Shown one piece after another: positions 828 to 29,334 of a DNA stretch of 53,223 bases (positions within the stretch are counted from its first letter, which is position 1; every line of letters begins with the position of its first letter). The stretch is from contig JANQKV010000012.1 in assembly GCA_028280945.1 (NCBI GenBank), positions 1-53,223 of the forward strand, given 5' to 3'. The stretch is from Opitutaceae bacterium. Its GTDB lineage: Bacteria; Verrucomicrobiota; Verrucomicrobiia; Opitutales; Opitutaceae. Below the pieces are notes generated by a model that did no database searches, had not been told where the DNA came from, and saw nothing but the letters and a program-made list of their open reading frames with translations. A program made the position numbers and the translations under genes.

Positions 828-848
828 TCCTGACGCCGCCGGTCAGGA
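828..848 (-). terminator. Weak hairpin at the end of the transporter operon
   Basis: TCCTGAC and GTCAGGA form a 7-bp stem around a 7-base loop and overlap the stop codon of the last gene of the leftward operon. No T-run follows on the minus strand, so intrinsic termination is doubtful. Confidence 0.25.
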
Positions 849-3593
849 GTGGTGTTCCGTCTGTTGGCGGCGGGCGAGTTCGGTGAAGATTCCGTTGCGG
901 GCGAGCAGGGAATGGTAGTCTCCCGATTCGACCAATTCGCCTTTCACGATCACGAAAATCTTGTCCGCGTTCATGATCGTGCTCAGGCGATGGGCAATGA
1001 CCACCCGGGTGACCTGCATGCGCCCGAGGCTTTCGGTGACAATCGCCTGGGATCGGTTGTCCAACGCGCTGGTGGCTTCATCGAGAAGGAAGATTCTTGG
1101 CTTGGACGCGATGGCCCGCGCGATCAACAGACGCTGAATCTGGCCGCCGGAAAGCGTGGTAGCGCCTGGGTTGATCACGGTGTGCATCCCCATCGGCATG
1201 GCGGCGATGTCCTGGTCGAGTCCGGCGAGTTTGGCGGCGTCCCAGGCCTGTTGCTCCGAAAGCGGTAGGGCGCCGATGATGTTCGAATAGATATCCCCGG
1301 GCAGAAGCTGACCGTTCTGCAGCACGGTTCCCGTTTGCTGCCGCACTCCGGTGATATCGAGCGTGGCCAGGTCAAGGTTGTCCAGCAGGATGCTGCCTTT
1401 TTCCGGTTGGTTGAAGCCCAGCAGGAGACGCATCAAGGTGGATTTGCCGGATCCCGATGGTCCGACGAAGGCCGCGAATTGACCGGGTTCGATGGTCAGG
1501 CTGACATCCTTGAGGACCAGGGGATCCTCGGGGTTGTAGCGAAATTGAATGCGACTGAGTTCGATCCGCCCTTCCAGCTCCGGGGGATCCATCGCTTCGG
1601 TCGTCGCTTCCGGCACTTCCGTAATGATCGGTTTGATGCGATCGAGCATGGGCTGGATGTTGATCACCTGCACAAAGGACTGGGCGATGCCAAGGACGCC
1701 GGCGATGAAGACCCCGAAGGCGGCATTGAAGGCGAGAAACTTACCGGTGGAGAGCAGCGCGGATGGATCTGTCTTTGCGAACTGAAACAGCATGAAGAAG
1801 ATCACCATGCTGCACAGCAGCGTGTAGTTGTCGGCGATCAGGGTGACGATGTTGTCGTAACCACGCGCCTTGTAATCCAGCTGCTTTTGTCGGCTGAAGG
1901 AGCGAGTCCAGGAAGCAAACGCATGCACCTCGGCCCCGGCATTGCGGAGCTTGGCGATGCCGGTGAGCAGTTGCAGCACCAGTCCCTGGGTCTTGCCGGA
2001 CACCGCCAGAATCTGACGCTCGTAGTGCAGCTTCAGGTAGGTGATCGCGAAGGTCAGAAGCGCGGCGACTAATCCCAGGGCGATACCCAGCAGTCCGAGC
2101 TTCGCATTGTAATGGATCATCAGTCCGATCGCGAGGATGCCGCTGAGCCCGCCCATGATGGAGTTTACCAAACTTCCGGACAGGACCTCGCGGATCATGT
2201 TGATCGTCTGGGCACGGTCAGCGAGGTCACCGGCAGTATAGTGGCGGAAAAAATCAACGGGCAGACGCAGGATGCGATCGAACAAGGCGGGTTGCAGTTT
2301 GCCGTCAAAGATACCCTCGGTGCGTAGGACAAGGATGTTGCGAATGAAGTTGAATGCCCCGGAACCGGCGGCGGTCAAGAGCATGCCCAGGGTAAGGTAG
2401 AGCAGCTGACGGTATTCCGCGGCTGGAATGATGGTGTCAAAGATCACCCCGGTGGCCCAGGGTGCGACCAGTCCCAGACTGCCGCCGGCCAGAGCCAGCA
2501 CGAAGACCCAGGCCAGTTCCCAGATCGTGTCGCGGGAGACGAAGGACAGCAGGTCGCGGTTCCTTAAGGGGCGATCGGGCAGGGAACAATAGAACGTCGT
2601 GGCAAACGGCGCGAGCGAGGCCGCGATCTCGGCCGTGACGGGGGTCGAGGTTTCCGCCACGGGATCCTGGAGACGATAGCGGTCGGGACCATGCGGGATG
2701 AGGGCCACGGGCTGGTCGCCGTCTTCCAGGCGCGCCAACAGGGGACCTTGGGAGGCGTTCCACCACTCACCGCGCAGGGCGACCTTGCGGGCCTTGATGC
2801 GGGCGGTCCGCACGATGCGATCGATCGGGCTGCCGGTTGCATCCGCCTTGTCCAGACCCTTGGGCGCCTTCAACTGGATTCCTTGGTGATGGGCCACCAA
2901 GGCAGCAGCCAGGAACACGGGGTGACTGGATTGGGCCTTGAACTTCGCGAGAATGGCCTGGTCACTGCGTCCGAGGGCCGAAGCAAGGTGTTCGTAGGCT
3001 GCTTTTCCGGTCTCTTGCGTCCAAGCTTGCTGGCGATTCAAGCGCTCAAGCTCGTTGCGGGCCTCGGTCGTGCGAACATCGGCGATGTCCTTGAAAAGCT
3101 GCTCGGCCAGGCGTTGCAGACTGTCCCAACTTGATGAACCACTTTCGCCGACGAGGTTTTCATCCAACAAGTTGCCGGGGTTGTTTTGGTTGAGACGTTC
3201 GATCCACGTCTGGATCCGTGCATCCAGGGCAGCCTGGAGTTTGGGATCCTCTGAAACCGTATCGAGCTGGCGTTGCATGACTTGGCAGACCCGGATCCCC
3301 GGTCCGCCCACGGCCAACAGGCTCTCCCCGTGGGCCTCTCCCATGCCAAATATGGTCTCTCCCGATTCGATGGTGGCGAAATGGGACCGGGCCCCCGTGG
3401 GTTTGCCGTCCTCGACTTGCACGGAAAAAATCTCAACCCGACCCGATTCAACCAGGAAGGCCGACTGGGTGTTGAGCAGTTGAGGTGCATTACCCGGCAC
3501 GGCAAACGAATCGCCCTGGGATCGCATCCAGTCGACCCAAACATCACCCTGGGTTTCCGGCGTATCACTGGAGTTGGTCTTCGCGGAGCTCAT
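843..3593 (-). CDS. NHLM-type bacteriocin export ABC transporter, permease/ATPase (no peptidase)
   Basis: This 916-residue protein is the second half of the paired NHLP/NHLM bacteriocin exporter. An N-terminal soluble region of about 330 residues has no C39 peptidase signature. It is followed by a six-helix exporter domain (about 350-640) and an ATPase domain with Walker A GPSGSGKST, signature LSGGQIQR and Walker B IFLLDEATSALD. It should sit in the inner membrane and pump the modified peptide, probably as a heterodimer with the C39-bearing transporter encoded just upstream (3590-5797). The two genes overlap by four bases (ATGA), so translation is probably coupled. It is the last gene of the leftward operon starting at 11474. 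Confidence 0.93.
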   Translation of the reverse strand: MSSAKTNSSDTPETQGDVWVDWMRSQGDSFAVPGNAPQLLNTQSAFLVESGRVEIFSVQVEDGKPTGARSHFATIESGETIFGMGEAHGESLLAVGGPGIRVCQVMQRQLDTVSEDPKLQAALDARIQTWIERLNQNNPGNLLDENLVGESGSSSWDSLQRLAEQLFKDIADVRTTEARNELERLNRQQAWTQETGKAAYEHLASALGRSDQAILAKFKAQSSHPVFLAAALVAHHQGIQLKAPKGLDKADATGSPIDRIVRTARIKARKVALRGEWWNASQGPLLARLEDGDQPVALIPHGPDRYRLQDPVAETSTPVTAEIAASLAPFATTFYCSLPDRPLRNRDLLSFVSRDTIWELAWVFVLALAGGSLGLVAPWATGVIFDTIIPAAEYRQLLYLTLGMLLTAAGSGAFNFIRNILVLRTEGIFDGKLQPALFDRILRLPVDFFRHYTAGDLADRAQTINMIREVLSGSLVNSIMGGLSGILAIGLMIHYNAKLGLLGIALGLVAALLTFAITYLKLHYERQILAVSGKTQGLVLQLLTGIAKLRNAGAEVHAFASWTRSFSRQKQLDYKARGYDNIVTLIADNYTLLCSMVIFFMLFQFAKTDPSALLSTGKFLAFNAAFGVFIAGVLGIAQSFVQVINIQPMLDRIKPIITEVPEATTEAMDPPELEGRIELSRIQFRYNPEDPLVLKDVSLTIEPGQFAAFVGPSGSGKSTLMRLLLGFNQPEKGSILLDNLDLATLDITGVRQQTGTVLQNGQLLPGDIYSNIIGALPLSEQQAWDAAKLAGLDQDIAAMPMGMHTVINPGATTLSGGQIQRLLIARAIASKPRIFLLDEATSALDNRSQAIVTESLGRMQVTRVVIAHRLSTIMNADKIFVIVKGELVESGDYHSLLARNGIFTELARRQQTEHHS

Positions 3594-5797
3594 GCGTTCA
3601 CGAGTTTGGCGAAGAATCCCTCACGGTCCCGCATCAGGCTTTCCGGATCTCCTTGCTGGACGACTTTGCCTTTGTTGAGGACGACAATTTGGTCGCAGTC
3701 CCGGATGGTGCTGAGGCGGTGGGCAATGATGAGGCAAGAGCAGCCCCGACGTCTGAGATTAAGATCAATCTCATGTTCGGTCGTCGGGTCGAGTGCGCTG
3801 GTCGCCTCGTCGAGGATCAACACGCGGGGATTGCGGACGAGTGCGCGGGCGATTTCCAGGCGCTGCCTTTGTCCGCCACTGAAGTTGCGGCCGCCCTCGG
3901 CCACCCGCGATTCATAACCGCCGCTGCGTTCCGAAATGATATCGTGAATGCAGGCGTCCTTGCAGGCGCGAACGAGGTTTTCGTTGGGGACGGTTTTATC
4001 CCAGAGCGTCAGGTTTTCCTTGATCGTTCCCTCGAAGAGGAAGATGTCCTGATCCACGGCCGCGAAGGAGTTGACGAAGTAGTGACGGGGATACTGCTCC
4101 CGCGAAAACCCATCGAAAAGGATGTCACCGCGCCAAGGTTCGTAGAGGCCACTGAGGACCTTCGCCAAGGTGGATTTACCACAACCGGAAGGGCCGACAA
4201 AGGCCACGCGCTCGCCGGGCTGGACCGTGAGGTTGAACCCATCAATAAATGCCGGCTCGAGGGGGGAATAACCAAAGGCCAGGTCCCGCACCTCGACGAA
4301 CCCGGTCATCTTGACGGGGATTCCGGTAGGCTCCCCGGAGTTATCCGTGGTCGACGGAATAAAATCCACCGCAGGCTCATTTTGCAGAACGTCGTCGAGG
4401 CGCTTCAGGTTGCCATCGATTTCCTGCACTGAGCCACCGAGCCTGACGAACTCGTTCACCGGTCGGATGAAGTTCCCCATGAGCACCTGAAAGGCGACGA
4501 GGTCTCCCATGCTGAGCACGCCTTCCATGACGCGGTAACCACCGAAGCCGAGAATGATGGCGGTGTTCAGGGCCTGGAGCGTGGTCGGCAGCACGGCGAG
4601 AAATTGATTCGTGACGCCAAGCCGCTGCATGCCGTTGAGGAACTTGGCCTGATAGCCGGCCCATTGGGCGAAGAAGTGGCCCTCGGTGCCGCTGGCCTTC
4701 AGGCTCTCGATGATCTGCAATCCCGACATGGTGGAACCGGCCAGCTTGCCCTGGTCCTGCAGGAGACGGGCATTGATGTCTTTGCGCTTTTGGGAGACCG
4801 CTTGGAGCACCAGGAGGTTCACGCCGGCGATGCCCATGCCGATCAGCGCCAGCACCCAGTCGTAGAGCAGCATGACCCCGCCGTAGAAAATGAGCAGTCC
4901 GAGCCCGACGAAGTTGGTGGCCAGGTCGCCGGAGAGCAGTTGGGCGATGCGATCGTTGAGGGCCACCCGATTGGCGATTTCCCCGGCAAACCGCTGTTGG
5001 AAAAATTGCACCGGCAGACTGAGCACGCGTCGGAAAAACTCACTCGACATCTTGATGGCCAGCTTCACCTCCAGTCGTCGCAGCGACTGTTTCTGCAGGA
5101 TGGTCAGCGTGGACTGCAGCGCGAGGGCAAGGGCCATGGCGAGGAGCAGCGGGCGCAGCCATTCCTGCCGGCTTTCGATCAACACCTGGTCGACAAAGAT
5201 TTTGCTGAACGCCGGCACCACCAGCCCCGGGATGACCAGAAAGAGGGTGGCCAGCACGAGGAATCCCAGGCCGGATTCCGACCCTTTGAGGCGACGTTTC
5301 AGGGAGCCAACGAGGCTGGGCTTTTCCCCGCCGGCCTTGAAGTCCTCGCCGGGTTCGAACGACAACGCTACCCCGGTGAAACTGTCGTCAAATTCCTCGT
5401 AGCTGACCTTCCTTGGTCCCGTGGCCGGATCGTTGAGGTATACCCATTTCGGGCCGAATCCTTCCAGCACCACGAAGTGGTTGAAGTTCCAGAATACAAT
5501 CAGGGGCAGCGGCATCTCCGCCAGCTGGTGGGGCTCCTTGCGAAAACCGCGGGCCTTGAGGCCATAGCGCCGGGCCGCCCGGAGGAGGTTGCTTGCCTTG
5601 CTGCCGTCGCGGGTAACGCCGCATTCCACCCGCAACGTTTCGAGAGACTCGCGGTAGTTGAAATATCCCAGCACCATCGAAAGTGATGCCGCGCCACACT
5701 CGACCGCCTCCATCTGCAACACGGTGGGCGTGCGCACACGGCGCTTTTGCTTCACCATCGAAGGCCCGAAATCTTGCTGCGCGGTGGCGGAATCCAT
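3590..5797 (-). CDS. NHLM-type ABC transporter with C39 leader peptidase
   Basis: This 735-residue protein combines an N-terminal C39 cysteine peptidase, an exporter membrane domain and an ATPase. The peptidase shows LQMEAVECGAAS with Cys34 as nucleophile and Gln28 nearby, the histidine in NHFVVLEGF, and the aspartate in LNDPATGPR. The ATPase has VGPSGCGKST, FSGGQRQR and LILDEATSALD. The family cleaves leaders after a Gly-Gly motif during export, which matches the VAGG junction in both precursors at 11618-12343. It lies seven bases after the HlyD adaptor gene and overlaps the next transporter gene by ATGA. Confidence 0.95.
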   Translation of the reverse strand: MDSATAQQDFGPSMVKQKRRVRTPTVLQMEAVECGAASLSMVLGYFNYRESLETLRVECGVTRDGSKASNLLRAARRYGLKARGFRKEPHQLAEMPLPLIVFWNFNHFVVLEGFGPKWVYLNDPATGPRKVSYEEFDDSFTGVALSFEPGEDFKAGGEKPSLVGSLKRRLKGSESGLGFLVLATLFLVIPGLVVPAFSKIFVDQVLIESRQEWLRPLLLAMALALALQSTLTILQKQSLRRLEVKLAIKMSSEFFRRVLSLPVQFFQQRFAGEIANRVALNDRIAQLLSGDLATNFVGLGLLIFYGGVMLLYDWVLALIGMGIAGVNLLVLQAVSQKRKDINARLLQDQGKLAGSTMSGLQIIESLKASGTEGHFFAQWAGYQAKFLNGMQRLGVTNQFLAVLPTTLQALNTAIILGFGGYRVMEGVLSMGDLVAFQVLMGNFIRPVNEFVRLGGSVQEIDGNLKRLDDVLQNEPAVDFIPSTTDNSGEPTGIPVKMTGFVEVRDLAFGYSPLEPAFIDGFNLTVQPGERVAFVGPSGCGKSTLAKVLSGLYEPWRGDILFDGFSREQYPRHYFVNSFAAVDQDIFLFEGTIKENLTLWDKTVPNENLVRACKDACIHDIISERSGGYESRVAEGGRNFSGGQRQRLEIARALVRNPRVLILDEATSALDPTTEHEIDLNLRRRGCSCLIIAHRLSTIRDCDQIVVLNKGKVVQQGDPESLMRDREGFFAKLVNA

Positions 5798-5803
5798 GCG
5801 GGG

Positions 5804-7060
5804 TCAGATGCCGAAGAATTTGCGCAGAAACGGAATCACGAGCGTGATGGGGGCGTTTTCGCTGGTAATGATACTGACCTCACAGATGGTGCCCGTGAAC
5901 AGATTTTCCTCGGGGCCCGCCGCGGAGGACCAGGCGAAACCACTGTAGGTGGCCGGGTCTTTTTGCAGGAGCGCAACCCCCGCGAATTGCGCTCCGGAGG
6001 ACGACATTTGCTGCACCAGTTCCTCGTTTTGGAGGACACTCATCATCGAAAGGGGAGTCGCCGGGAAATCCGACACGGATTCCACTTCGCCCAGCAAAAC
6101 TCCATAACGCTCCTTTTTCACCGTTGACGGGGAAATCTGGATTTCCATGCCTGCTTCGACGCGTGTGCTTTCGGTATCCGGAACAAAAAACTGGGTCGTG
6201 AGTTCGGCTCCCTTGAGTTCGAGGCTGAGAATGGTGGCCCCAGACGAAATGAGCTCATGTTGATCGATCAATATCTCGAGCACGCGACCGGGGTAGGGAG
6301 AAGTTATCTGGGATGTGCGATCATAGGTCTGACGTAGGTCCACGAGCCGGGTGCGTTCCGCATCCAATTCGACTTGAGACTGGGCAATTTTTTGGTCGGC
6401 TTCGTTAAGCGCTTCGGTGCGTGAAAGCTCCAGGCCTTGGAGCTGGACCTGTGCTTCTTCCGTTTGCAGCTCCACCTGGGCCAGATCCAATTGATTCTGC
6501 TGCAACTCCTGTGAGGTCAACAGCCCCCGTTCCAAGAGTTCCTCGTTTATTTCGATCTGTTTCTTTACGAAGCCTGCTTTGCGCTCGAGCGAGGCAACCG
6601 AATTGTTCAAACGCTCGGCTTGGCGGTCGAGCGACTCAAGTCGCAGCATGCGGTCTTTGTTCACGAATCGAACGAGTTTGTCGTGGTTTTCGCTCATGCG
6701 TTGCACTTTCTGCTCGGTTTCCCCGATTACCCGTTCCCGATCCGGGGAAACAAGTCGGGCGATGGTTTGCCCGGCCTCGATGTTATCGCCGGGCTCAACC
6801 AAGATCGTGCTCACCCGACCGGAGCCTTCGCTGGTCATGGTGAAGAGACCGGCGGAACGCAGCAGGATGCCTTGCCCGTGAACCTTCATGGGAATTCGGC
6901 CAAAGATCCCCCACACTAGGGCGAACCCGAGAAGCATGCCGACCGTGACCAATCCGATCCACAGGCGGGGACTGGTGACCTGCATTAATTCGTCCAGACG
7001 CTCGGGCGAGGAGATCTTGTCGAGCGACTTTTGCCGAAACAGCTTTTTGGTGGGATCCAT
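5804..7060 (-). CDS. NHLP bacteriocin system HlyD-type membrane-fusion protein
   Basis: The frame stays open further upstream, but that part overlaps the TolC-like gene in an unnatural Arg/Pro-rich composition, so I place the start at MDPTKKLFRQKS, about 27 bases after that gene ends. The 418-residue protein has a single membrane helix at about residues 32-55 (WIGLVTVGMLLGFALVWGIF), a split lipoyl-like domain, a long Glu/Gln/Leu-rich coiled coil (about 95-250) and a C-terminal beta domain. It would bridge the inner-membrane ABC pair to the TolC-type channel. Homology to the bacteriocin-system secretion protein family is recognised from the sequence pattern; the start is certain to within a base or two. 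Confidence 0.9.
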   Translation of the reverse strand: MDPTKKLFRQKSLDKISSPERLDELMQVTSPRLWIGLVTVGMLLGFALVWGIFGRIPMKVHGQGILLRSAGLFTMTSEGSGRVSTILVEPGDNIEAGQTIARLVSPDRERVIGETEQKVQRMSENHDKLVRFVNKDRMLRLESLDRQAERLNNSVASLERKAGFVKKQIEINEELLERGLLTSQELQQNQLDLAQVELQTEEAQVQLQGLELSRTEALNEADQKIAQSQVELDAERTRLVDLRQTYDRTSQITSPYPGRVLEILIDQHELISSGATILSLELKGAELTTQFFVPDTESTRVEAGMEIQISPSTVKKERYGVLLGEVESVSDFPATPLSMMSVLQNEELVQQMSSSGAQFAGVALLQKDPATYSGFAWSSAAGPEENLFTGTICEVSIITSENAPITLVIPFLRKFFGI

Positions 7061-7086
7061 GGGATTTCTTTCGCTTGGGGGGGCGG

Positions 7087-8676
7087 TCAGGGCAGGGTCG
7101 TAAGCGCGCTCGCGTCGAGTTGAAAGCCCCCCTCCTGCAGGATGAGGAGCGTGCCGGTTTGGAAGCGGAGGTTGATCACGGCGCTGGCATACTGGAGCTG
7201 ATTTTGCACCAACTGAAGATTCGTTCGAGTCATGATTTCCTCGAGATTGATGTAATCGAGCAGGGTGCTCTGGCCCAGCTTGAGTTTTTCCTCTTCGAGT
7301 TGGAGGGCCGTTTGGTAAAGCGCGGAGGCTTGATCCGTATCCAGCAGGCTGCTGCGGGCGGTGCGCACGTCCTGCAGGGCCTGGAGCACGGCCGTGTAAA
7401 TGGTGTGTTCCAACTGCTCCTCGCGCAATCGCGCCTGCCTTTCGCCGGCGCGGCGTTCCAGCACGACTCCGCGTTCTAGGTTGCGCCTCCATCCCCAATC
7501 CATCGAGACCGATGCTGTAAAACTCGGACCCTCGATATTGCGGTAATAGGAATCGAAATGGTTGCTCCAGGAGGTGCCGCCCACGTAGCCCGCGTAGCCG
7601 GCGCTGAGGTTCAGATCGAGATCGATTTTATCGAGGGCCTCGGCTTGTTTGCGCAACACTTCCGCCGCGCGAACCTCACCTTCGGCGGACTGGAGGTCGC
7701 GGCGGTTGTCGAGGGCCAGTTGCAGCAGTCGCGAGGACTGAGGTTGGATCTCGGCTTCGGCAATCCCTGTTACCGGCACAAAGTCGGTTGAGGGAGGGGG
7801 CAATGCCGCGATGTCCTCGCCGGATATGCCCATCAACAGACCGAGTTCGCGTTGCGCACTGATCAGCGTGAACTCCGCCCGCACCCGGGTGGCGCGACTG
7901 GAGGCCAGGTCCGCCTGGGACTTGTTGATTTCGGAGGCCGGGAGTCGGTTCGCCTGGATGAGCGCCTCGGTTTGTTCGACGAGATCCTCACTCCAGGATT
8001 CGGATTGACGGAAGATCTCCAAATTGCGGGTGGCGGAGAGATACTGCCAGTAGGCGGAGATGACGAGCGACAGCTGCTGCGACAGCGTATGTTCGTAGGC
8101 GGCCTGCAGCGCGTCGACATTCTCTTTTGCCGCCATCTCTTCGCCAGCGGTCGCCAGCTCCCCCAGACCCTTCATCAGCGGCACCGTGATCGACATTTGC
8201 CAGCTGCCATAATTCGAGGGATCCAACCCACTCGTATTGCTGTTGCTCGCAGCGTAGCTGACGTTCGGCGTCACCGAAATGCCGGAGCGGAGCTGCTGGG
8301 TGACGGAAAGAGAGTAGTTTGTTTCCTGATCGGTGCTAACGAACAGGTCGTCCGGGGTGCTGGAAAGCGCGGCGTTTACCCGCGTTTCCGACGAGTCGAG
8401 TGAAACGGAAAACTGGGGATCGAAAACCGATGAAACCTGCTGCAACTGCGCCTCGCCGGCGACCACGCTCTGCTCGCTGATCAAAACATCGACATTGGAC
8501 TGCAACATCATGCGCACGGCGTCGTGAACAAAGAACGTGTTCGCCGGGACGGTTTCTTCGTTGGAATCCTCTTCGGCGTTCAGGTTGAATGCCATCAGGA
8601 GCGTAACCATGGCGCTGACAAGGACCGGATGCTTCCGGCCCCGGAACGGGTCGCAGGATGAACGAAAGCTAATCAT
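7087..8676 (-). CDS. TolC family outer-membrane efflux protein
   Basis: I chose MISFRSSCDPFRG at 8676 because its ATG overlaps the stop of the upstream JmjC gene; a start at 8715 is possible but less likely. The protein (about 529 residues) begins with a signal peptide (HPVLVSAMVTLLMAFNLNA) and then has two repeats of the outer-membrane efflux fold, rich in long amphipathic helices with Gln/Ala/Leu (for example ELATAGEEMAAKENVDAL, then DVRTARSSLLDTDQASALY). It would form the trimeric outer-membrane exit of a type I style exporter with the adaptor and ABC proteins, giving the cluster a complete trans-envelope route in a Gram-negative cell. Confidence 0.9.
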   Translation of the reverse strand: MISFRSSCDPFRGRKHPVLVSAMVTLLMAFNLNAEEDSNEETVPANTFFVHDAVRMMLQSNVDVLISEQSVVAGEAQLQQVSSVFDPQFSVSLDSSETRVNAALSSTPDDLFVSTDQETNYSLSVTQQLRSGISVTPNVSYAASNSNTSGLDPSNYGSWQMSITVPLMKGLGELATAGEEMAAKENVDALQAAYEHTLSQQLSLVISAYWQYLSATRNLEIFRQSESWSEDLVEQTEALIQANRLPASEINKSQADLASSRATRVRAEFTLISAQRELGLLMGISGEDIAALPPPSTDFVPVTGIAEAEIQPQSSRLLQLALDNRRDLQSAEGEVRAAEVLRKQAEALDKIDLDLNLSAGYAGYVGGTSWSNHFDSYYRNIEGPSFTASVSMDWGWRRNLERGVVLERRAGERQARLREEQLEHTIYTAVLQALQDVRTARSSLLDTDQASALYQTALQLEEEKLKLGQSTLLDYINLEEIMTRTNLQLVQNQLQYASAVINLRFQTGTLLILQEGGFQLDASALTTLP

Positions 8677-9592: not shown

Positions 9593-9615
9593 GGGGAGTC
9601 GGGAGTCGATAAGCG

Positions 9616-11950: not shown

Positions 11951-11962
11951 GCTTCTCCGGCA

Positions 11963-12343: not shown

Positions 12344-12377
12344 GAATCAGCTGACTCTCCACTTGCAGTGTTTTTTG

Positions 12378-12404
12378 AAAGGGGTCTTCGGACCCCTTTT
12401 TTTT
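12378..12404 (+). terminator. Rho-independent terminator of the precursor transcript
   Basis: AAAGGGGTC pairs with GACCCCTTT around a TTCG loop, followed by a run of eight T. This is a near-ideal intrinsic terminator with a UUCG tetraloop. It lies 35 bases after precursor 2, and its T-run touches the stop codon of the convergent oxidoreductase gene. Confidence 0.92.
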
Positions 12405-13326
12405 ATGCCATTTCGGCGGCGAGCAATTCCATGCCGGCAACGCTATCGCGTGGCTTTGCCGACATGGGGATCAGCACAACCTCATCACTACGAAAACGCT
12501 CAGCCATTTCCCTGAGTTTATCCGCACAACGTGCCGGTTCACCGATCACAATCGTATTTACGTAGGGTTTGGTTACGCGGAGCGCGGTGAGTCGCTCCAC
12601 CGCTTCCCGATTGGTGCGCGCGCACACAATCGAAACTGCAATGCTAAGGTGAGGGTGGGTTCGCTCCACGGACGGCTCGAACGCGTTGCGATACTCCTGG
12701 CAAATCTCCGGCCCGGCATTGTGGGGGCCGTGGACGAGCGAGTAGCAAAAGGCGGTGCCGTGGCGTGAGGCGAGGATCTGGTTGCCGCGACCGCTTGCGG
12801 CACCCAGCAGGGTGATGGGTGGGCTCCGCTGTCCCTCCGGACTTACCCCGGTGTAGTGAGGGTGGGCGTAACGCGTCGTGTTACGGGAGAGCGCGATGAG
12901 TCGCTCTACCCGGTCGGCGTATTGTCGTGATTTGATCGCCGCCTCCAGGTCAAATCCGGCCTGCAGGTCCTCGCGAACTTCCGGACTGGCCGTCACCCCC
13001 GAGGCCACCCCACAGTCGATCCGCCCGGGGAACTGCGCTTCGAGCATGCGGAACGACTCGGCGATCCGCAGGGGACTGTGGAACTGCATGAGCACGCCGG
13101 CGGTGCCGACGCGCATCCGGTTCGTTCGCATGGCAATCGAAGGGATCAGAAGCTCCGGCACAGCGAAGGCGAAACGGCTTTCATGGTGCTCGGCCAGCCA
13201 TAGCCGGTGGAATCCCATTGCTTCGAACCGGGGAGCGTTGTCGCAGATGGCGCGCAGGACCTGCGAAGGGGTTTGACCGGGCCCGACGAGGCCGAATTCC
13301 AGGAGACTGAGTCGAAAGCTTTTCAT
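12403..13326 (-). CDS. LLM-class (luciferase-like) flavin/F420 oxidoreductase, putative LanJ-type reductase
   Basis: The start at 13326 (MKSFRLSLLEFGLV) overlaps the LanM stop by ATGA; the frame is open further upstream only because of the overlap. The 307-residue protein is a bacterial-luciferase-like TIM barrel, with FHRLWLAEHHESRFAFAVPE and RIDCGVASGVTASPEVRED typical of the MsnO8-like branch. Family members use FMN or F420. In lanthipeptide clusters, members of this superfamily (LanJC, as in lexapeptide, from memory) reduce dehydroalanine or dehydrobutyrine to D-amino acids. Its overlap with lanM supports a tailoring role. Which cofactor it uses cannot be told from the sequence. It is the last gene of the right block. 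Confidence 0.82.
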   Translation of the reverse strand: MKSFRLSLLEFGLVGPGQTPSQVLRAICDNAPRFEAMGFHRLWLAEHHESRFAFAVPELLIPSIAMRTNRMRVGTAGVLMQFHSPLRIAESFRMLEAQFPGRIDCGVASGVTASPEVREDLQAGFDLEAAIKSRQYADRVERLIALSRNTTRYAHPHYTGVSPEGQRSPPITLLGAASGRGNQILASRHGTAFCYSLVHGPHNAGPEICQEYRNAFEPSVERTHPHLSIAVSIVCARTNREAVERLTALRVTKPYVNTIVIGEPARCADKLREMAERFRSDEVVLIPMSAKPRDSVAGMELLAAEMA

Positions 13327-16300
13327 TCCCACGCCAGGATACACGGCAGGCCGTGTTTGGGATTCATCCAGAGATAATGATAACCAATGCCGCCCAATCC
13401 TTGGTGGAATGCGTAGATGGGCAATCCCGGTGCGAGACCGAGTTGGTAACGGCCCTTTTGGGAGGCCGTGTCCAACACCTGTTGCGTCAGGTTTTGGGCA
13501 GCAGTTTCCCAGTCTGGGTTTCGGGTGGATCTTGCCGCAAACTGCAGGATTTGGGCGCGGCCCAGATTTCCGCAGCACAGGTGATCCAAGGGGGAGAAGG
13601 GTGCGCGTTGGGTCGTTTCGAGGGCCGGAGCCAGATCGTTGCCGGCCTGGGGAATCCCCTTCGTGAAGGCCCGGGCCAAGGCGATGCCGGGAGCACCGTG
13701 ACACCATCGGGTTTCGAAGTGATAACCTTGCTTGGACTTCGCCCATCTTAGATCAGGCCAATTGCCCAAATCGGCGTCGAACAACGTGTTTTCGTAATCG
13801 AGTGCCTCGATCGCAGCGTCCCGGAATTCTGTTTCTCCCGACGCAGTCGCGAGGCGATCCAACGCCATGGCGATTCCCGCTGCACCGTGGGAGATGCCAA
13901 GCAGGGGTTTGCCCTCCAACGTGAGCCAAGCGCGGTGACCACTCGCCGTTTCCACCCGACTGGCCAAGAGTTGCCGGCCCACCGCCACGGCTTGCTCCAG
14001 CCACCTTCCTTCAGAGCGCAGCGAGTGCAATTTCAACAGCGAAAGCACCGCCCCGGCATTGCCTCCGAGCAGGTCCTGGCGGTCGTCGGACTCGCAGCGC
14101 TCAAGGGTGATCCAGGATCCGGCTTTTTCCGCCAGGTCGAGATAGGACGAGTCCTCGAGGAGGGAGCCACAGACGGCCAAACCATAAACCAGACTGGATG
14201 CGCCCAAACCGGCTCCCGTGCCGGCTTCGAAAAGGAATCGGGCGGACTGACCATCTTGCACGAAGGTGGTGATGGACCGGGTGGCTCCGGCGATCGTATC
14301 GCCAAGCGGGATGGTGTCACCGGCACACCGTTCGACCGCAGCGAGAAACAACAACGTGCCGCAGAGACCGTCGTAGAGCCGGGCGGCCATCGGTTGAATT
14401 TGCCAGCGTTGCGCTTCGGCAAAGTAGGACAGGGTCAACCAGGTCACCGCACCGCTTTGCGTGCGGATGGCATCGCGCACGGTATTCTCGGCCAAACGCA
14501 GAGCTTCCTGTTCCCAGCTATCCGGATCCGGTGAGGCGGGCGACGGGGAGTGGGTTTGTCCGTCCGAACGCTCGATGTCCGGTTTCATGTCCACCAGGGA
14601 CGTGCGGATGAACGTCTTCTGGAGAGCGAGGTCCTCATCCCCAAGGGTCGCAAATCGCCGTTTGATCTGCGCCCATGCCGGTTCGGCGAAGAAGCCAGGA
14701 AACGTCTGTCCTTCGCCGTAAATCAATTCGTTGCCTTCCGGCTGAACGGTGAATCGAGGGATGTCCAACTGCAGCAGGTCGCCGCCTTCCTTTTGGAGAA
14801 TTTGCCAGTAGCGGTGGCGCTCGGGAGTATAGAGGAACGGGCGCAACAGGGTTTCTGTTACAATTGATGCGTCCGGCCCCAACGTCAGGTTGCGGGGCAA
14901 AAGCAGTTTGCGCAGCAGCGTCACGTAGATGCGGGTGTTGCGCAGGATGAATCGCACGGGCAAGGCGGCGATTTTTGCCAGGGGGCTTCCCGCTTGCAGG
15001 AGATGGTCCCGATTGTCGGCCAGGATCCGATAGCATTCGGTGAAGCCGGCGAGAATCTCCTCACGGTGTTCGGAAGGAAACTGCGTTTTGCCCGCCAGGC
15101 GCACGACATTCTGATCTGGCGCCGTGGAAACAAACTGCCGGGCGAGCGACATGGCGTCGGTGTTGATGTGCCTCCAGCCCTTCTGCCGGAAGCTGGTGCG
15201 TTGGCCCTCCACTCCGCCCAAGCCACTGATATCAAAACTCTCGCCATTGGCGCCCATTTCCCAGCGCGGCAGCATGGCCGTGCGGAAAACGGAGTCCCAG
15301 TAGAACAGAAGATTGGCCTGGGTCAGCGCGTCGCCGTCGTTCTCGCTGCTTTCTTGTCGGGGTCGGGGTTGGAAGATGGTCTCCAAGTCCACGATCATCG
15401 GGTGGGGGCCGGCTGCGATCAGGTTCTCGTTGTGAACATCGCTACCTTCGATGGCGTAAAACAGTGCCAGCAAAATCCCGGCGCGATGGTAGTAGGCGGC
15501 GACTTCCGCTGCGGACTGGCAGGGGCCGGGGAATACGACCTCCACCCAGCCGTGGTCGTCCCGCGAGAGCACCTGGTAGCCGCGCAAGGCGTGGCGAGGG
15601 TTATGGTCATTCAACCACTTGAGGAGTTCGTGGTAGGCGATCTCGGTCGAAAGATCTTTGGGTTTGTAGATGGTTTCCAGGCCTTCGGAAAACCGGACCC
15701 TTATGGAGGTCTTGCCTCCCTCATGGGCGTCGGAGATTCCGGCCTCCAAGGAACGGATTTTTCCCAACGGTTTCCCGTCATTCAACGAAGACGAAATAGC
15801 CTCCTCGTCCTGTTCGAGGTGACTGAGAAAACGCTTGGTATTCTCCACCAGGAAACTCCCGGCCGTGATCCAGTAGCGCAAGACAAGGGGATAACGCTTC
15901 AGCGTCGAAGCGAGCGCGCCGCGCCGCTGGCGGTCGACGAACTCGCGATAAACTTCAGTTGAGTCCGGTGAGGCCGGGGCGGTTGGGGAGGACATGCCCC
16001 GTTTGACGGCGCGGAAGATATTGAACTCCACCCCCAGGGTCTCGGCGCCGATCATGGCCAGCGACGACAACAAACGATGTTGCAGTTGATTCTGAGCGGA
16101 AGGTTCGAGCCATCTGGCGTAGAGCGGGGTCTCGGCTTCGAGCTTGGCGGCGAAATAAGTCACGACCGGTCCCAACAGGTGTTCGAACGCGATGGGCGAC
16201 CCGGGCTGGAGAAACGAAAACGAGGTGGTCAGTTGATCAAAATCCTGATCGGCGCACGCCGTGTAGGCTTCCAACAGGGCCGGAACTTCGCCGAGCCACC

Positions 16301-16562
16301 CGGGCGTGTGACCTTCCGGCAATTGCCACGACTCGTGCAGCAACGGCGAGACTTCTTCGGTGGTCAACGAATCGTAGGCGAGGCGTCGTTCGAATGTCGG
16401 CTCATCTCCGGCGGCGCAGGCATCCTTCCAGGATTTTATCCGTTGTTGGATTGCTGCGACCACTTCCGCGGCATCGGGTCCGCTGCCGTGCAAGGCAGCT
16501 CGCTCTGAAAAGAAAGCGGCGCGGGAAGCGATTAGTCGAAGGTCTGACGGGTCAAGCTGCAT
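13323..16562 (-). CDS. lanM: Class II lanthipeptide synthetase LanM, CCG type
   Basis: I start at MQLDPSDLRL (16562), which overlaps the upstream GNAT gene by 11 bases; 16616 is the alternative. The 1079-residue bifunctional enzyme has an N-terminal dehydratase with kinase-like active-site pieces TIYKPKDL (about 298), EGSDVHNENL (about 374) and MIVDLETIF (about 390). The C-terminal LanC-like cyclase has ISHGAAGIAMAL, WCHGAPGIAL (Cys about 953) and LCCGNLGRAQ (about 995-996). The CCG pattern suggests three cysteine zinc ligands, as in ProcM-like enzymes known for broad substrate tolerance. It should phosphorylate and eliminate Ser/Thr and then form (methyl)lanthionine in both cores. Confidence 0.95.
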   Translation of the reverse strand: MQLDPSDLRLIASRAAFFSERAALHGSGPDAAEVVAAIQQRIKSWKDACAAGDEPTFERRLAYDSLTTEEVSPLLHESWQLPEGHTPGWLGEVPALLEAYTACADQDFDQLTTSFSFLQPGSPIAFEHLLGPVVTYFAAKLEAETPLYARWLEPSAQNQLQHRLLSSLAMIGAETLGVEFNIFRAVKRGMSSPTAPASPDSTEVYREFVDRQRRGALASTLKRYPLVLRYWITAGSFLVENTKRFLSHLEQDEEAISSSLNDGKPLGKIRSLEAGISDAHEGGKTSIRVRFSEGLETIYKPKDLSTEIAYHELLKWLNDHNPRHALRGYQVLSRDDHGWVEVVFPGPCQSAAEVAAYYHRAGILLALFYAIEGSDVHNENLIAAGPHPMIVDLETIFQPRPRQESSENDGDALTQANLLFYWDSVFRTAMLPRWEMGANGESFDISGLGGVEGQRTSFRQKGWRHINTDAMSLARQFVSTAPDQNVVRLAGKTQFPSEHREEILAGFTECYRILADNRDHLLQAGSPLAKIAALPVRFILRNTRIYVTLLRKLLLPRNLTLGPDASIVTETLLRPFLYTPERHRYWQILQKEGGDLLQLDIPRFTVQPEGNELIYGEGQTFPGFFAEPAWAQIKRRFATLGDEDLALQKTFIRTSLVDMKPDIERSDGQTHSPSPASPDPDSWEQEALRLAENTVRDAIRTQSGAVTWLTLSYFAEAQRWQIQPMAARLYDGLCGTLLFLAAVERCAGDTIPLGDTIAGATRSITTFVQDGQSARFLFEAGTGAGLGASSLVYGLAVCGSLLEDSSYLDLAEKAGSWITLERCESDDRQDLLGGNAGAVLSLLKLHSLRSEGRWLEQAVAVGRQLLASRVETASGHRAWLTLEGKPLLGISHGAAGIAMALDRLATASGETEFRDAAIEALDYENTLFDADLGNWPDLRWAKSKQGYHFETRWCHGAPGIALARAFTKGIPQAGNDLAPALETTQRAPFSPLDHLCCGNLGRAQILQFAARSTRNPDWETAAQNLTQQVLDTASQKGRYQLGLAPGLPIYAFHQGLGGIGYHYLWMNPKHGLPCILAWE

Positions 16563-17481
16563 GGTCGGACGGGCGGTAGGTTTTCTCGCACTCGAACGTG
16601 GGTTGAATCGAGTCAAGATAACGGCGCAGATGGCGATTCAGAAAGTTCCACATGCGCCGATTGTTGGCGCGGAAATTACAGGAGGCGCGCGTCAGGGGGT
16701 GGAGTGCTTCCGCATGGCAATAAAGCCAGATGGAATGGGCGACCAGCAACAGTCCGCTCATGCCTCGCGGCGGGTTTTTCGATCGAAACCACAGATGGGA
16801 GAATCGCAGCGTGTCGGCGTCGATCTTATGGTTGATCATCCAACCGGCCGGTTGCTCTTGGTCAAAATAGATAAGACTCGAGTATGGCTCGATGTCAGGA
16901 TCCGATTCCGCAGGCGTCAGCTCAGCCGGAGCCTCTGATTCCTGCAGCTTGCGCCGATCCGATACACTCATCTCCGCCCAGCTTATGAGTCTTCCGGTAT
17001 CCGGAAGGCGGGTCGGGGGCTGCTTGAGCCAAGGTGCCTTGCCCAGGCTCTCCTTGCTCGAAAAACACGTGATCATCCGGATAGTCGGTTCGCTCCAGTC
17101 GCATGTTTGCAAAAGCGGACGGATCGGATGCAGTTCATCGGCCCGATCCATGAACACCGCCTGCAGTCGATTCACGTTTGTGGCTGAAAGCACGCCATCC
17201 AATTCCTTGAGTAGTTTTGTGCCGACGCCCTGCCGTCGCCATTTCGCGGATACAAAAACGGAGAGGAGTTGAGCTCGATCGGTCGACTTCGAGACTTCCA
17301 CCAAAGCCAGGCCAACGGGTTCTCCGGCGGAGAAAGCCCCGAGACGAATCACGTTGCCCGAAGCATTGTGGGCCAGGTGTGCCCGGTAGCGGGGAAATGT
17401 CATCCCGCGAAATGATGGAGATTCCATCGGGGTGAGCGGGCGGACGACCAAGGCGTCGGATGGAGATGTAAGGCTTTCCAT
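16552..17481 (-). CDS. Two-domain GNAT acyltransferase, RiPP-associated (paralogue 2)
   Basis: This 309-residue protein is the same length as the GNAT protein at 10545-11474 and has a matching layout: TFPRYRAHL near the start, the acyl-CoA loop RRQGVGTKLLKEL, an APWLK segment near the middle and a degenerate second GNAT half (RGMSGLLLVAHSIW). Identity outside the motifs is low, so the duplication is old or the two act on different donors or substrates. Being directly coupled to lanM (11-base overlap) and one base from the HTTM gene, it is very probably a peptide-modifying acyltransferase. Acylation of ornithine or of the N-terminus are both possible. Confidence 0.78.
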   Translation of the reverse strand: MESLTSPSDALVVRPLTPMESPSFRGMTFPRYRAHLAHNASGNVIRLGAFSAGEPVGLALVEVSKSTDRAQLLSVFVSAKWRRQGVGTKLLKELDGVLSATNVNRLQAVFMDRADELHPIRPLLQTCDWSEPTIRMITCFSSKESLGKAPWLKQPPTRLPDTGRLISWAEMSVSDRRKLQESEAPAELTPAESDPDIEPYSSLIYFDQEQPAGWMINHKIDADTLRFSHLWFRSKNPPRGMSGLLLVAHSIWLYCHAEALHPLTRASCNFRANNRRMWNFLNRHLRRYLDSIQPTFECEKTYRPSDHAA

Positions 17482-17482
17482 A

Positions 17483-18286
17483 CTACCGGGGCAGGAACGG
17501 GATCAGTCGGTGAAAAACGTCCCAAGCCACCCATAAACTCGGGTAAAGGGCGAAGGTCGACCACCAGAAGCTCGTGATTCGCAGGAGGACTCCGTTGAAG
17601 AGATGGAAGAGCAGACCCAGGCCGGCGAAGATGAAGAACCCTATCTCCGGCAAAAGCAGGCTCAGGGGAATACCCCATTCGATGGCCACCAACAGACGTC
17701 CCCCCATTATCCTGCGCGCGGGGACAGCGAACCGGCGGCGAAGCAGGGCGTGTCCGTAAATTTCGTTTTTGCTCAGCAGGTCGAGGAAAGATCCGTCGCG
17801 CCAACTCGGATGGCTGGCTTTGATCCACCCGGACTTGAGGTAGGAGAGCACCAATTGACCGGCGAGGAACAGGCAGGTTGCGGTTGCAACACCGGGATCC
17901 TGGGGAGCCAGGGATTGAAGCAGCAAAGCGACCAGCGTGATCAGCGCGAGTTGGTCGCCCCCTTCAAATCCATAGGGTTGCCGCAGCGCCGGATACCAAG
18001 TGGTTGCCACCAGGAGCAGCAGCAGCCCCGGGCGGATTAGCGAATCCAGCGGCACGATGAGCAGCGCAACCCCACCCAGGACACGCACAGCGAGCAGACC
18101 GGCCAGGAGCGGAAAAAACGACGCCCGGGTTTCATCCGACTGAGCCCGTGTCGTGGTGCCGGTCATCGCGCCCAGAAGAAAGCTCGGGCGGTAGTAGAGC
18201 CGCAACGAGAGCAACTCCAACGCACTGACGGTTGCGCCGGCGATGACCACGGTCTGCACCCATGACACTGTTTCGAACACGGTCAT
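17483..18286 (-). CDS. HTTM-like integral membrane protein
   Basis: The start at 18286 (MTVFETVSWVQT) overlaps the upstream stop by ATGA. The 267-residue protein has about six hydrophobic segments and the look of the HTTM domain shared by vitamin K-dependent carboxylases and SdpB-type proteins: LRLYYRPSFLLG, a conserved YLKSGWIKASHPSWRDGSF loop, then ALLRRRFAVP and FHLFNGVLLRITSFWW. Such proteins come with a small single-helix partner, which here is the preceding gene. In Bacillus the SdpA/SdpB pair is needed to mature a peptide toxin. The chemical role here is unknown; a membrane-bound maturation or immunity step is inference. Confidence 0.7.
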   Translation of the reverse strand: MTVFETVSWVQTVVIAGATVSALELLSLRLYYRPSFLLGAMTGTTTRAQSDETRASFFPLLAGLLAVRVLGGVALLIVPLDSLIRPGLLLLLVATTWYPALRQPYGFEGGDQLALITLVALLLQSLAPQDPGVATATCLFLAGQLVLSYLKSGWIKASHPSWRDGSFLDLLSKNEIYGHALLRRRFAVPARRIMGGRLLVAIEWGIPLSLLLPEIGFFIFAGLGLLFHLFNGVLLRITSFWWSTFALYPSLWVAWDVFHRLIPFLPR

Positions 18287-18789
18287 TGCGAGATCGGATG
18301 GGAGTTCGAAAGAAACAACAGACGTCGATCCCGTGACTGGTTGTTGGCGAACAGGAAGTAACCGAACTGAATGGCCGATGCGCCGTCCGGAATGGATTGT
18401 TCGCGGGCTAGGCGGAGGCAAATCCGATAGGGCAGTGAAGCCTCTACATCCGGCGTTTTCTGCAATCGTAGCTGGATGATCTTGAGTGCGACATCCAGAT
18501 ACGCCTTTTCGACGCGCCGGACGGGAACCCAAAGCAGCGGAATTTCCCGGCCCCGTCGGGCTACCTTCATCGAACGCCAGGAGGACAGTTTCCCATTTTC
18601 GTCGTGGTAGCGCACGCGCAGGTCATAGTTCAAGACGGCGTAGTTTGACGAAAACAAGGCCCAGTTTGGCAGCAGGCCAAACATCGGAAAGTCCCGCAAA
18701 AGTCGCGGTTGCCATCCAGGTGGACACTGCTTCCACGCTGACAGGATGAACCACCCGCCGAGCAGCCCGGTAAGCAACTCCGAAACCAT
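18283..18789 (-). CDS. Small membrane-anchored partner of the HTTM protein (DUF5819/SdpA-like)
   Basis: I start at MVSELLTGLLGGWFILSAWK (18789), which opens with a probable membrane segment. The 168-residue protein then has FPMFGLLPNWALFSSNY followed by LRVRYHDENGKLSSW, resembling the W-x-F-F and VRY-x-D-x-x-G pattern of the small proteins that accompany HTTM genes. Strong identification is not possible by eye. ATGA overlap with the HTTM gene and a 13-base gap to the S41 gene put it in the right block of the RiPP cluster. It probably forms a complex with the HTTM protein. Confidence 0.55.
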   Translation of the reverse strand: MVSELLTGLLGGWFILSAWKQCPPGWQPRLLRDFPMFGLLPNWALFSSNYAVLNYDLRVRYHDENGKLSSWRSMKVARRGREIPLLWVPVRRVEKAYLDVALKIIQLRLQKTPDVEASLPYRICLRLAREQSIPDGASAIQFGYFLFANNQSRDRRLLFLSNSHPISQ

Positions 18790-18802
18790 GGCGCTCGACG
18801 CT

Positions 18803-20113
18803 CTACGGTCGCTTGGTGGTGGCAAGATCGAAAAGTGCTCGCAGGTCGCCGTCCTCAACCGGTCCGTCGATCAGAATGTCGGGCACCAAGCCTGCGCCCA
18901 CTCCACAACTCCATGCCGGGATTCCTTCCAGTACCCCCGTGGCGAGACGAAAGAGGACGCCTGTGCGGGGCAGGAGAACGGCACCGGGCTGGACCAAACG
19001 GGTTGCTCCGGCCGTAACCGCCCCGGCCAACATCGCTCCGAACTGCCGTTTTAACGTCCAGGCTAAAAGCTCGGCGTCGCTCGCCGTGCGCCCGTCGATC
19101 AAAACGATCACCGGAAAAGGCAGTCGTTTGGCCGAGTCGGGAAACGGCGAAGCTGGTTTGGGTGGAGTGGTCGGGAAGCTCTGCCGCAGAAGCTGGTTGG
19201 CCAGGCCGATGCGAAGATTCATTTCATACGGTGGGCGATGACGAGCGATTTGACTCAGCGTGTGTCCCACGCGCAGTGCGATATGAATGGGTTGCGCCTG
19301 CGAAACTGAGAATGAAGCGCGCACGGCGGCCCAGAATTCCACGCCTGGAAACAGGCGATTGAGGACCTCAATGGTGCTCATCAAGTCTCCCCCGGGGTTG
19401 CCGCGAAGATCGAGGACGAATCTGTTGCACTGATCCAGGTCCATTGGATTGAGAAACCGGCGCAGACCGGCGAGCGCCGAGCGTTCCATGGTCGGAAGTG
19501 CGCAAATACCGAGGTTACCTGCAGAGATGCGGAAGCTGGGCGTTGGCTTGATGTCACGGGCGGCTGGATTGACCAACTCCAGGCTTATCTGGACGCCCAT
19601 GGTTATGTCCCGAAGACGTTGCTCGCTGCGGTCGTAACCAGGTCGAACTACGCGATTCTTTCCGTTGGGGTGATCCCAAACGGTATCAGTCCATTGGGCA
19701 AAAAGGAGTTGGGTGAAGACCGGGCCGGTGTGGACATCCGGCCACTTTGCTTGCCAAGTTTGGTATCCGCGAAATGCCTTCGGTGAAGTCAACTCTACTG
19801 CCTGTTTCCTGAGGTCCCGACGCCACTCGGCCCAGTGTGTCGCCGGATCCAATCCAACTTCCTCGGCCATGCGCCAACCCGGATATGCCGTAGTCAGCAA
19901 CTCCTCGAGAAATTCCAAATCTGCCAAGAAGTCATCCCGCTTCACCTGGCTTATCTCTCGAGCTTGGCGATAATCGGCCAGCGGGCGGTTAAACGATTTT
20001 TCGGTCCACGGTTTGCGGTAGGGCTCCGCACTTAGAAAATCGTCCGCCATCGAAGGAGCAAGGAGCCGGAGTTCGGCCAAGCCTTCCCGGAGATGATCAG
20101 CCGGCAATTTCAT
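18803..20113 (-). CDS. S41 family peptidase-like protein, apparently cytoplasmic
   Basis: I start at MKLPADHLREGLAELR (20113); no signal peptide or PDZ domain is evident. The 436-residue protein has the S41 core: FVLDLRGNPGGDL (about residue 239) and VIVLIDGRTASDAELLAW (about 335), where the serine in TAS would be the nucleophile. The usual TxGK lysine is replaced (VTAGATRLVQ), as in some tricorn/S41B-like members, so it either uses another base or is not a classical Ser-Lys protease. It is the first gene of the right block. It may trim or proofread the modified peptide; this is inference. Confidence 0.72.
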   Translation of the reverse strand: MKLPADHLREGLAELRLLAPSMADDFLSAEPYRKPWTEKSFNRPLADYRQAREISQVKRDDFLADLEFLEELLTTAYPGWRMAEEVGLDPATHWAEWRRDLRKQAVELTSPKAFRGYQTWQAKWPDVHTGPVFTQLLFAQWTDTVWDHPNGKNRVVRPGYDRSEQRLRDITMGVQISLELVNPAARDIKPTPSFRISAGNLGICALPTMERSALAGLRRFLNPMDLDQCNRFVLDLRGNPGGDLMSTIEVLNRLFPGVEFWAAVRASFSVSQAQPIHIALRVGHTLSQIARHRPPYEMNLRIGLANQLLRQSFPTTPPKPASPFPDSAKRLPFPVIVLIDGRTASDAELLAWTLKRQFGAMLAGAVTAGATRLVQPGAVLLPRTGVLFRLATGVLEGIPAWSCGVGAGLVPDILIDGPVEDGDLRALFDLATTKRP

Positions 20114-25549: not shown

Positions 25550-25574
25550 AAATCCCCACCAGATGTAACCAGAG

Positions 25575-29309: not shown

Positions 29310-29334
29310 ATTTGAACCCTCAAAGAAAAGAAGA

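Follow-up and report, generated by a model that had tools for sequence, protein, structure and literature searches.

Organization of the gene cluster

The window analysed here is the entire contig JANQKV010000012.1 (53,223 bases) of the 5.44 Mb genome of an Opitutaceae bacterium (assembly GCA_028280945.1). Its left part carries a cluster of 15 genes that begins 842 bases from the contig end and encodes two NHLP-type precursor peptides, a class II lanthionine synthetase (LanM), a UPF0489 peptide arginase, a JmjC-type oxygenase, two GNAT proteins, a luciferase-like (LLM) flavin oxidoreductase, an export machinery, an S41-family protein and two proteins without a family match (Table 1). Judging by the gene set and the core sequences, we consider it likely that the cluster directs the joint production of two selidamide-type class II lanthipeptides.

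The extent originally predicted for the cluster is delimited by the final exporter gene, which ends at 843, and by the start of the S41 gene (20113). Its genes form two tightly packed runs and two divergent precursor genes. The first run comprises the genes for the S41-family protein, the 168- and 267-residue proteins, GNATb, LanM and the LLM enzyme, neighbouring genes being no more than 13 bases apart or overlapping by 4–11 bases; the second comprises those for GNATa, the arginase, the JmjC protein, the TolC-type channel, the HlyD-type adaptor and the two ABC exporters (ABC1 and ABC2), where the spacing does not exceed 26 bases and overlaps are of 4–8 bases. The two runs look like two operons predicted from their spacing, with GNATb sharing a run with lanM and GNATa with the arginase gene. 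The genes for the precursors, A1 and A2, lie between both runs on the opposite strand, divergent from the GNATa end, and a promoter scan of positions 11400–12450 found none. The labels first given to the exporter genes and to the LLM, LanM, channel, Cupin_8/JmjC, UPF0489, GNAT and S41 proteins all agree with matches to Pfam or NCBIfam profiles.

Precursor peptides and their conservation

Both precursors match the NHLP leader model significantly (A1, E = 1.2e-11, 44.3 bits; A2, E = 3.5e-10, 39.6 bits), and in both the leader ends in Gly-Gly and is followed by a Cys-rich core. On these grounds their designation as NHLP precursors can be retained, with the reservation that both scores fall under the model's cut-off. 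The A1 core reads VGDGNR-CGGS-CAAS-CVVS-QAF and the A2 core AR-CAAS-CAAS-CAVT-STVSIGYPGVGAVGGCV. They share the layout R-(CxxS/T)3 and diverge after it. Each has a single Arg immediately N-terminal of the first Cys and no Lys, so that an ornithine formed from this Arg would be the sole side-chain amine of the core. A1 has three Ser for three Cys, and A2 has six Ser/Thr for four Cys. If rings were formed Ser/Thr-first, between residues at least two positions apart, one of the three Cys in A1 and two of the four in A2 could be bridged; with rings in either direction, all three and all four could. The shared layout thus implies that most rings must be Cys-first, joining a Cys to a dehydroalanine or dehydrobutyrine (Dha or Dhb) C-terminal of it.

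A scan of contigs with the arginase, which reaches close relatives only, returned one locus, L002, at 51% identity. It belongs to a metagenome-assembled genome (G576) from the same order, Opitutales, and a different family, and it carries all 15 genes, with order and relative orientation unchanged and the precursor genes at L002 positions 8182–8897. Such agreement goes beyond what chance would give. This second copy is flanked by a gene for an ATP-grasp protein and, at its other end, one for a glycosyltransferase, which supports the cluster borders.

Between the two copies the A2 core is identical at 31 of 31 residues, with 23 of its 31 codons different, and the A1 core at 20 of 21, with 14 of its 21 codons different. 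Over both cores, 37 of 52 codons differ, 36 of them only synonymously, and one amino acid has changed; by the Nei–Gojobori count, 37.0 of 41.2 synonymous sites have changed versus 1.0 of 114.8 non-synonymous sites. RpoB of the two genomes is identical at 990 of 1261 positions (78.5%). The contrast between the A2 core and its own leader (59 of 95 residues identical) is, from the sequences, the strongest part of the case for invariance. Two observations weigh against that case: the A1 leader is well conserved too (80 of 89), and 27 of 5236 windows of 31 residues in the 13 other proteins are fully identical. Windows of 21 residues reach 20 identities in 219 of 5452 instances in the enzymes. The comparison is of one pair of genomes, the only two copies of the cluster known, and on the sequence evidence the near-invariant pair suggests that the peptides have a specific target that is itself conserved, and that they possibly act together. 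The fixed cores are the most interesting trait of the locus, and they had been overlooked in the original prediction together with the R-(CxxS/T)3 layout.

Modification enzymes

The synthetase aligns to LicM2 and CylM; the WCHG motif is shared, and CCG stands where LicM2 has CHG. It contains the dehydratase and LanC-like cyclase domains of a class II enzyme (PF13575 and PF05147). Its description as a CCG-type LanM is confirmed by a three-Cys ligand set in the alignment to LicM2 and by the assignment to class II through TIGR03897. ProcM-clade LanMs with three Cys ligands, rather than Cys-Cys-His, are reported to cyclise in both directions (PMC13060382; this and the other publications cited are drawn on in excerpt), which would bring the Cys-first rings needed by the A1 and A2 layout within reach.

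The LLM enzyme is a luciferase-like PF00296 protein encoded inside a lanthipeptide cluster, the gene context of LanJC, and we propose from its sequence that it is a LanJC-type reductase converting Dha or Dhb to D-residues. LanM plus an LLM enzyme had been put forward as a lanthipeptide route, and such an enzyme is indeed described as LanJC in the two-component lanthipeptide birimositide (PMC7268733). Since Ser/Thr exceed Cys in A2 and not in A1, the LLM enzyme should act on A2 only. The L002 frame used for its comparison in Table 1 lacks the first few residues.

The UPF0489 protein aligns with the arginase OspR (8brp; E = 3.4e-33), whose Mn ligands are His12, Asp39, His41, Asp43, Asp165 and Asp167 (PMC10028609). 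All six are kept, in EEH, DXHXD and DxD motifs, and Glu11 is matched too; with the PF12640 score over its cut-off, these findings substantiate the arginase label.

The profile of the JmjC protein matches JMJD6 structures over profile positions 22–268 of 320, and both the HLD motif and the later His region are in register there; the protein also aligns with JMJD5 over most of its own length. In biphenomycin biosynthesis the JmjC protein BipG is an ornithine gamma-hydroxylase that acts after a UPF0489 arginase (PMC12707348), and in phaeornamide ornithine is formed, then hydroxylated to 4-hydroxyornithine by an Fe(II)/alpha-ketoglutarate enzyme and then acylated (PMC9505594). Because the A2 core has neither Asn nor Asp, a hydroxylase substrate common to A1 and A2 would have to be Arg/ornithine or a neutral residue other than Asn.

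Both GNATs are 309 residues long and have a P-loop motif in the N-terminal half (residue 86 in GNATa, residue 82 in GNATb). GNATa has a further P-loop motif in its C-terminal half (residue 245), in the window and in L002; the C-terminal half of GNATb has none in the window and a loose match in L002. The earlier description of two two-domain GNATs therefore holds well for GNATa, with two Pfam stretches and a motif in both halves, and less securely for GNATb, with one stretch and the N-terminal motif only. NpuN, a tandem GNAT that lipidates the Lys side chain of a class II lanthipeptide, likewise has a clear P-loop in its N-terminal domain only, and its relatives accompany NHLP or Nif11 precursors (PMC13060382). 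The gene linkage of selidamides is found here as well: two GNAT genes lie beside two NHLP-type precursors, which match the leader model significantly, below its cut-off.

The S41-like protein and two proteins without a family match

With a profile of the S41-like protein, the best match in the PDB is retinol-binding protein 3 (E = 5.7e-9), followed by C-terminal processing proteases and a nisin-resistance protein (1.4e-5); a fragment of the protein gave a best E of 0.026, to C-terminal processing proteases. The Ser of the TASDAEL motif (TSSDAEL in L002) is present and no Lys aligns with the FGKG stretch of 7rpq, so that the protein lacks the Ser-Lys dyad of these proteases. A candidate His, His128, is common to both copies. 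Nisin-resistance proteins use a Ser in a TASSAEM motif and His98 and are held to work without Lys (PMC4698656). The TASDAEL motif resembles theirs, retinol-binding protein 3 nevertheless being the best structural match. Inspection of the N-terminal sequence revealed no evident signal peptide. As far as the sequence goes, the protein may act in producer protection, in trimming or in a non-catalytic role.

The reading frames holding 17483–18286 and 18283–18789 had been labelled an HTTM pair. Neither has a Pfam or NCBIfam match over threshold, the second giving a single sub-threshold match to MNHE (E = 0.13). The HTTM profile PF05090 has no match at E ≤ 0.001 in this genome or in 19 genomes searched, though it is found in 3 of 14 control genomes, and the label is unsupported. 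A structural model of the 267-residue protein has a predicted local distance difference test score (pLDDT) of 47, too poor for use. That of the 168-residue protein reaches 60, and a fold search of the PDB with it returned nothing at E ≤ 0.001. In 177 genomes of the order, the 267-residue protein has matches at E ≤ 0.01 in four: its own genome, G576 and two genomes with short, weak matches.

Table 1. Genes and features of the cluster, with positions in the window and amino-acid identity to the L002 copy
Feature	Position	Strand	Evidence	L002 identity
NHLP-system ABC permease/ATPase without peptidase	843..3593	-	TIGR03797 851.9 bits (cut-off 709.4)	67%
NHLP-system exporter with C39 peptidase	3590..5797	-	TIGR03796 1072.9 bits (cut-off 853.3); PF03412 120.6 bits	80%
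HlyD-type adaptor	5804..7060	-	TIGR03794 308.4 bits (cut-off 156.2)	56%
TolC/OEP outer-membrane channel	7087..8676	-	PF02321 139.3 bits	53%
JmjC/Cupin_8 Fe(II)/2-oxoglutarate oxygenase, proposed ornithine hydroxylase	8669..9592	-	PF13621 101 bits	70%
UPF0489 peptide arginase (Arg to ornithine)	9616..10548	-	PF12640 51.7 bits (cut-off 27)	51%
Tandem GNATa, proposed ornithine N-acyltransferase	10545..11474	-	PF00583 63.2 bits, two stretches	57%
Precursor A1	11618..11950	+	Leader 1-89; core 21 residues, one Arg (core position 6), 3 Cys, 3 Ser	
Precursor A2	11963..12343	+	Leader 1-95; core 31 residues, one Arg (core position 2), 4 Cys, 6 Ser/Thr	
Terminator-like stem-loop where the A2 and LLM genes converge	12377..12400	+	1 found, mean of shuffles 1.4; alone not significant	
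LLM flavin oxidoreductase, proposed LanJC-type Dha/Dhb reductase	12403..13326	-	TIGR03558 187.5 bits (cut-off 166.95); PF00296 86.2 bits (cut-off 27.9)	58%
LanM class II lanthionine synthetase, CCG-type cyclase	13323..16562	-	TIGR03897 779.7 bits (cut-off 304)	54%
GNATb, tandem by length, second proposed acyltransferase	16552..17481	-	PF00583 34.1 bits, one stretch	40%
267-residue multi-helix protein, probably membrane	17483..18286	-	No profile match; helical low-confidence model	42%
168-residue protein, in a weak model an N-terminal helix followed by mixed alpha/beta structure	18283..18789	-	No match over threshold	43%
S41-family protein with TASDAEL serine motif	18803..20113	-	PF03572 57.9 bits	41%

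Distribution, other NHLP clusters and neighbouring DNA

The genome samples searched were drawn from larger groups, and the following figures hold within them. The arginase profile found 1 of 286 genomes in a sample of the class and 3 of 387 in a sample of the phylum, two of these three being weak partial matches. A2 matched in 5 of 372 genomes of the order sample, two of which (this genome, G000, and G576) hold the present cluster; in 6 of 200 of the family sample, its own genome alone at full length; in none of the seven other genomes of its genus listed in that family sample; and in one of two genomes of the family of G576. A1 matched in 7 of 387 genomes of the phylum sample; among the matches listed only its own genome is full-length, and G576 is not among them. 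The LanM profile found two of the six genomes tried, again G000 and G576. A search of plasmids with the arginase gave no match, and one of viral contigs with LanM gave the pattern in two stretches and no relative.

We also considered whether other NHLP clusters of the phylum are of the same kind, and rejected this: by tblastn at 1e-3, relatives of LanM or the arginase were found in none of the stretches from nine genomes. Those of G594, G547, G708, G454 and G435 were compared with queries from the window and L002, and those of G291, G292, G302 and G531 with window queries only; the G454 and G531 stretches are short (5.2 and 6 kb). Weak partial arginase profile matches (E = 8e-8 and 9e-4) had led to the choice of G454 and G435. 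Leader-like matches also occur in G521, G907, G920, G972 and G984. G594 has an NHLP cluster of its own (L016, 7009–7986 and 12665–14516): its five precursors differ in their cores, exporter genes are present, and a GNAT-like gene lies at a distance of about 5 kb; the L016 stretches examined hold no relative of LanM or the arginase. Three NHLP-type precursor matches per genome were found in G292 (L042), G291 (L043), G302 (L044) and G531 (L045). The three longer of these loci contain exporter genes, and L042 and L045 have weak GNAT matches; here too the stretches examined hold no LanM or arginase relative.

Beyond the cluster, positions 20986–23151 of the window hold a 721-residue open reading frame with a signal-like start by inspection and no Pfam or NCBIfam match. 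Positions 23668–41758 form a separate region for sugar use and transport, with genes for a sigma factor, FecR, a TonB receptor, GH2, 3-keto-disaccharide hydrolase, GFO/IDH/MocA, GH3 and PhoD proteins and a TRAP transporter. The GC fraction is about 0.53–0.57 from 20 to 36 kb, lower than the 0.58–0.61 of the peptide cluster.

Proposed route and alternatives

The genes and core sequences are observed, and we infer each chemical step from protein families and sequence; we propose the following route. The leaders of A1 and A2 would guide the peptides to the enzymes, and LanM would dehydrate Ser/Thr and close the rings, the simplest pattern being three small i,i+3 rings and, in A2, one large ring involving the fourth Cys at position 30. 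The peptide arginase would convert the single core Arg, adjoining the first Cys, to ornithine, which the JmjC oxygenase would probably hydroxylate and on whose side chain one or both GNATs would place an acyl chain. The LLM enzyme would reduce those dehydro residues that have no Cys partner, which the residue count permits in A2 and not in A1. The C39 exporter would cleave after Gly-Gly, with export through HlyD and TolC, and the S41-like protein and the two further proteins would probably serve self-protection or trimming.

An acyl-ornithine product, as first predicted, is the reading best supported by sequence: each core offers one Arg and no Lys, the metal ligands of the arginase are kept, and the genes remain linked in L002. 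Several points weigh against it. The genes for LanM and the arginase sit in separate runs. A1 and A2 fall below the leader-model cut-off of 50.9 bits. The arginase has Ser for the first Asp of LDIDLDYF in its third motif, a non-ligand position, and scores 190.3 bits on the FlmR/OhkR model NF052474, below the curated cut-off of 350. The second domain of GNATb is assigned by length and alignment, Pfam finding one stretch; the PDB relatives of the GNATs are mostly acetyltransferases, aligned over the N-terminal half, and neither acyl length nor acceptor can be read from the sequence. Finally, two GNATs for a single ornithine per peptide are a surplus without explanation.

Two refinements are compatible with this route. 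One is that A1 and A2 act jointly, as a two-component lanthipeptide, and not independently, which we regard as a tentative possibility. The adjacent precursors have the R-(CxxS/T)3 start in common, differ later and have cores that are fixed together, and birimositide is a described two-component system with a LanM and an LLM enzyme (PMC7268733); against this, several NHLP precursors per cluster are also seen elsewhere, as in the five of G594 and the three each of G291, G292, G302 and G531. The other refinement concerns use, and it is somewhat doubtful that the peptides are a conserved signal, or an agent of the producer's own cell surface or membrane, and not a weapon. Near-invariant cores are unexpected for competitive toxins, and here 36 codons have changed solely synonymously; nor is there an immunity exporter of the LanFEG type among the identified cluster genes. 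Self-protection would fit the S41 relatives, which include the nisin-resistance protein, and the conservation comes from one comparison of two copies only. In its fullest form, which is rather unlikely to hold in every part, the joint model has A1 and A2 as a two-component pair in which each peptide carries an acyl-(hydroxy)ornithine, perhaps made by its own GNAT, before three Cys-first rings, with D-residues in A2 only and one unchanging target. A pair hitting one such target would explain cores that are fixed across bacterial families.

It is quite improbable that the products are ornithine lanthipeptides without fatty acylation, the GNATs using acetyl-CoA, acting on the N-terminus or serving self-protection. 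GNAT relatives in NCBIfam and the PDB are acetyltransferases of many kinds, landornamide A has two ornithines, both unmodified (PMC12703449), and in nostolysamides the acyl group brought no gain in activity (PMC13060382). Yet NpuN and its relatives beside NHLP and Nif11 precursors provide a lipidating precedent on Lys, a residue that the A1 and A2 cores lack, and the core alpha-amine would be an unlikely target if, as we infer, the exporter removes the leader after the cytoplasmic GNAT step. That the cluster is decaying, or that the LLM enzyme, the S41-like protein and the two further proteins are passengers, is highly improbable: the S41 protein, GNATb and the two further proteins are the least conserved (40–44% identity), but each of the 15 genes has an open frame in either genome and gene order is shared, ratios of non-synonymous to synonymous change (pN/pS) are 0.09–0.58, and several genes overlap by 4–11 bases.

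If the selidamide assignment is correct, lipidated-ornithine lanthipeptides extend to Verrucomicrobiota, and reduction of dehydro residues and a second acyltransferase join the selidamide route. It would also place two naturally fixed peptide sequences on offer, in contrast to the unlike cores of the five G594 precursors. A fixed pair amid near-saturated synonymous change would then point to a target that is both defined and conserved and is open to a direct search, and the R-(CxxS/T)3 layout is a small system in which to test how Cys-first rings form.

Comparison with known systems

Landornamide biosynthesis (osp) involves OspD, a radical-SAM epimerase. Landornamide resembles the present cluster in combining lanthionine with ornithines made by an arginase of the same family, OspR (PMC12703449, PMC10028609), and differs in obtaining its D-residues through OspD and in leaving its ornithines unmodified (PMC12703449). 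Biphenomycin (bip/pbs) shares the pairing of a UPF0489 arginase with a JmjC or cupin-like ornithine hydroxylase that acts after it; unlike the products proposed here, it has a biaryl ring, which MNIO and radical SAM enzymes build, and the excerpts of its description mention no lanthionine or acyl step (PMC12707348, PMC12257519). Birimositide (brt) has two precursors, class II chemistry and the LLM enzyme LanJC, held to reduce dehydro residues to D-Ala; arginase, GNAT and hydroxylase go unmentioned in the excerpted account (PMC7268733). Among the papers listed by our literature search, outside which most subscription papers and the founding selidamide paper lay, there is no account of this cluster, of a selidamide with an LLM enzyme or of a selidamide in Opitutae, and the excerpts of a coral-microbiome study that reports lanthipeptide clusters hold nothing on this one (PMC13083261).

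The nostolysamides (npu) come closer, with a three-Cys LanM and a tandem GNAT, an acylated side chain on the first core residue and three of four rings Cys-first; in contrast to the present cluster, they have a Nif11 leader, an acylated Lys and a single precursor, and no arginase is mentioned in the excerpts (PMC13060382).

The phaeornamide cluster is described as comprising an NHLP precursor, an OspR-like arginase, a type II lanthionine synthetase, an Fe(II)/alpha-ketoglutarate hydroxylase, a GNAT and transporters (PMC9505594). Phaeornamide and the selidamides thus resemble our cluster, by description only, in the same central set, a cleaving exporter and an acyl-(hydroxy)ornithine (PMC9505594). 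The statement in the original prediction that no described cluster holds all these families together is consequently largely wrong, and arginase plus GNAT, there taken as a route separate from lanthipeptides, is united with lanthionine formation in phaeornamide (PMC9505594). For the same reason we reject the idea that the cluster is unique in kind. What it adds to the phaeornamide set is an LLM enzyme, a second GNAT, a second precursor, an S41-like protein and two further proteins.

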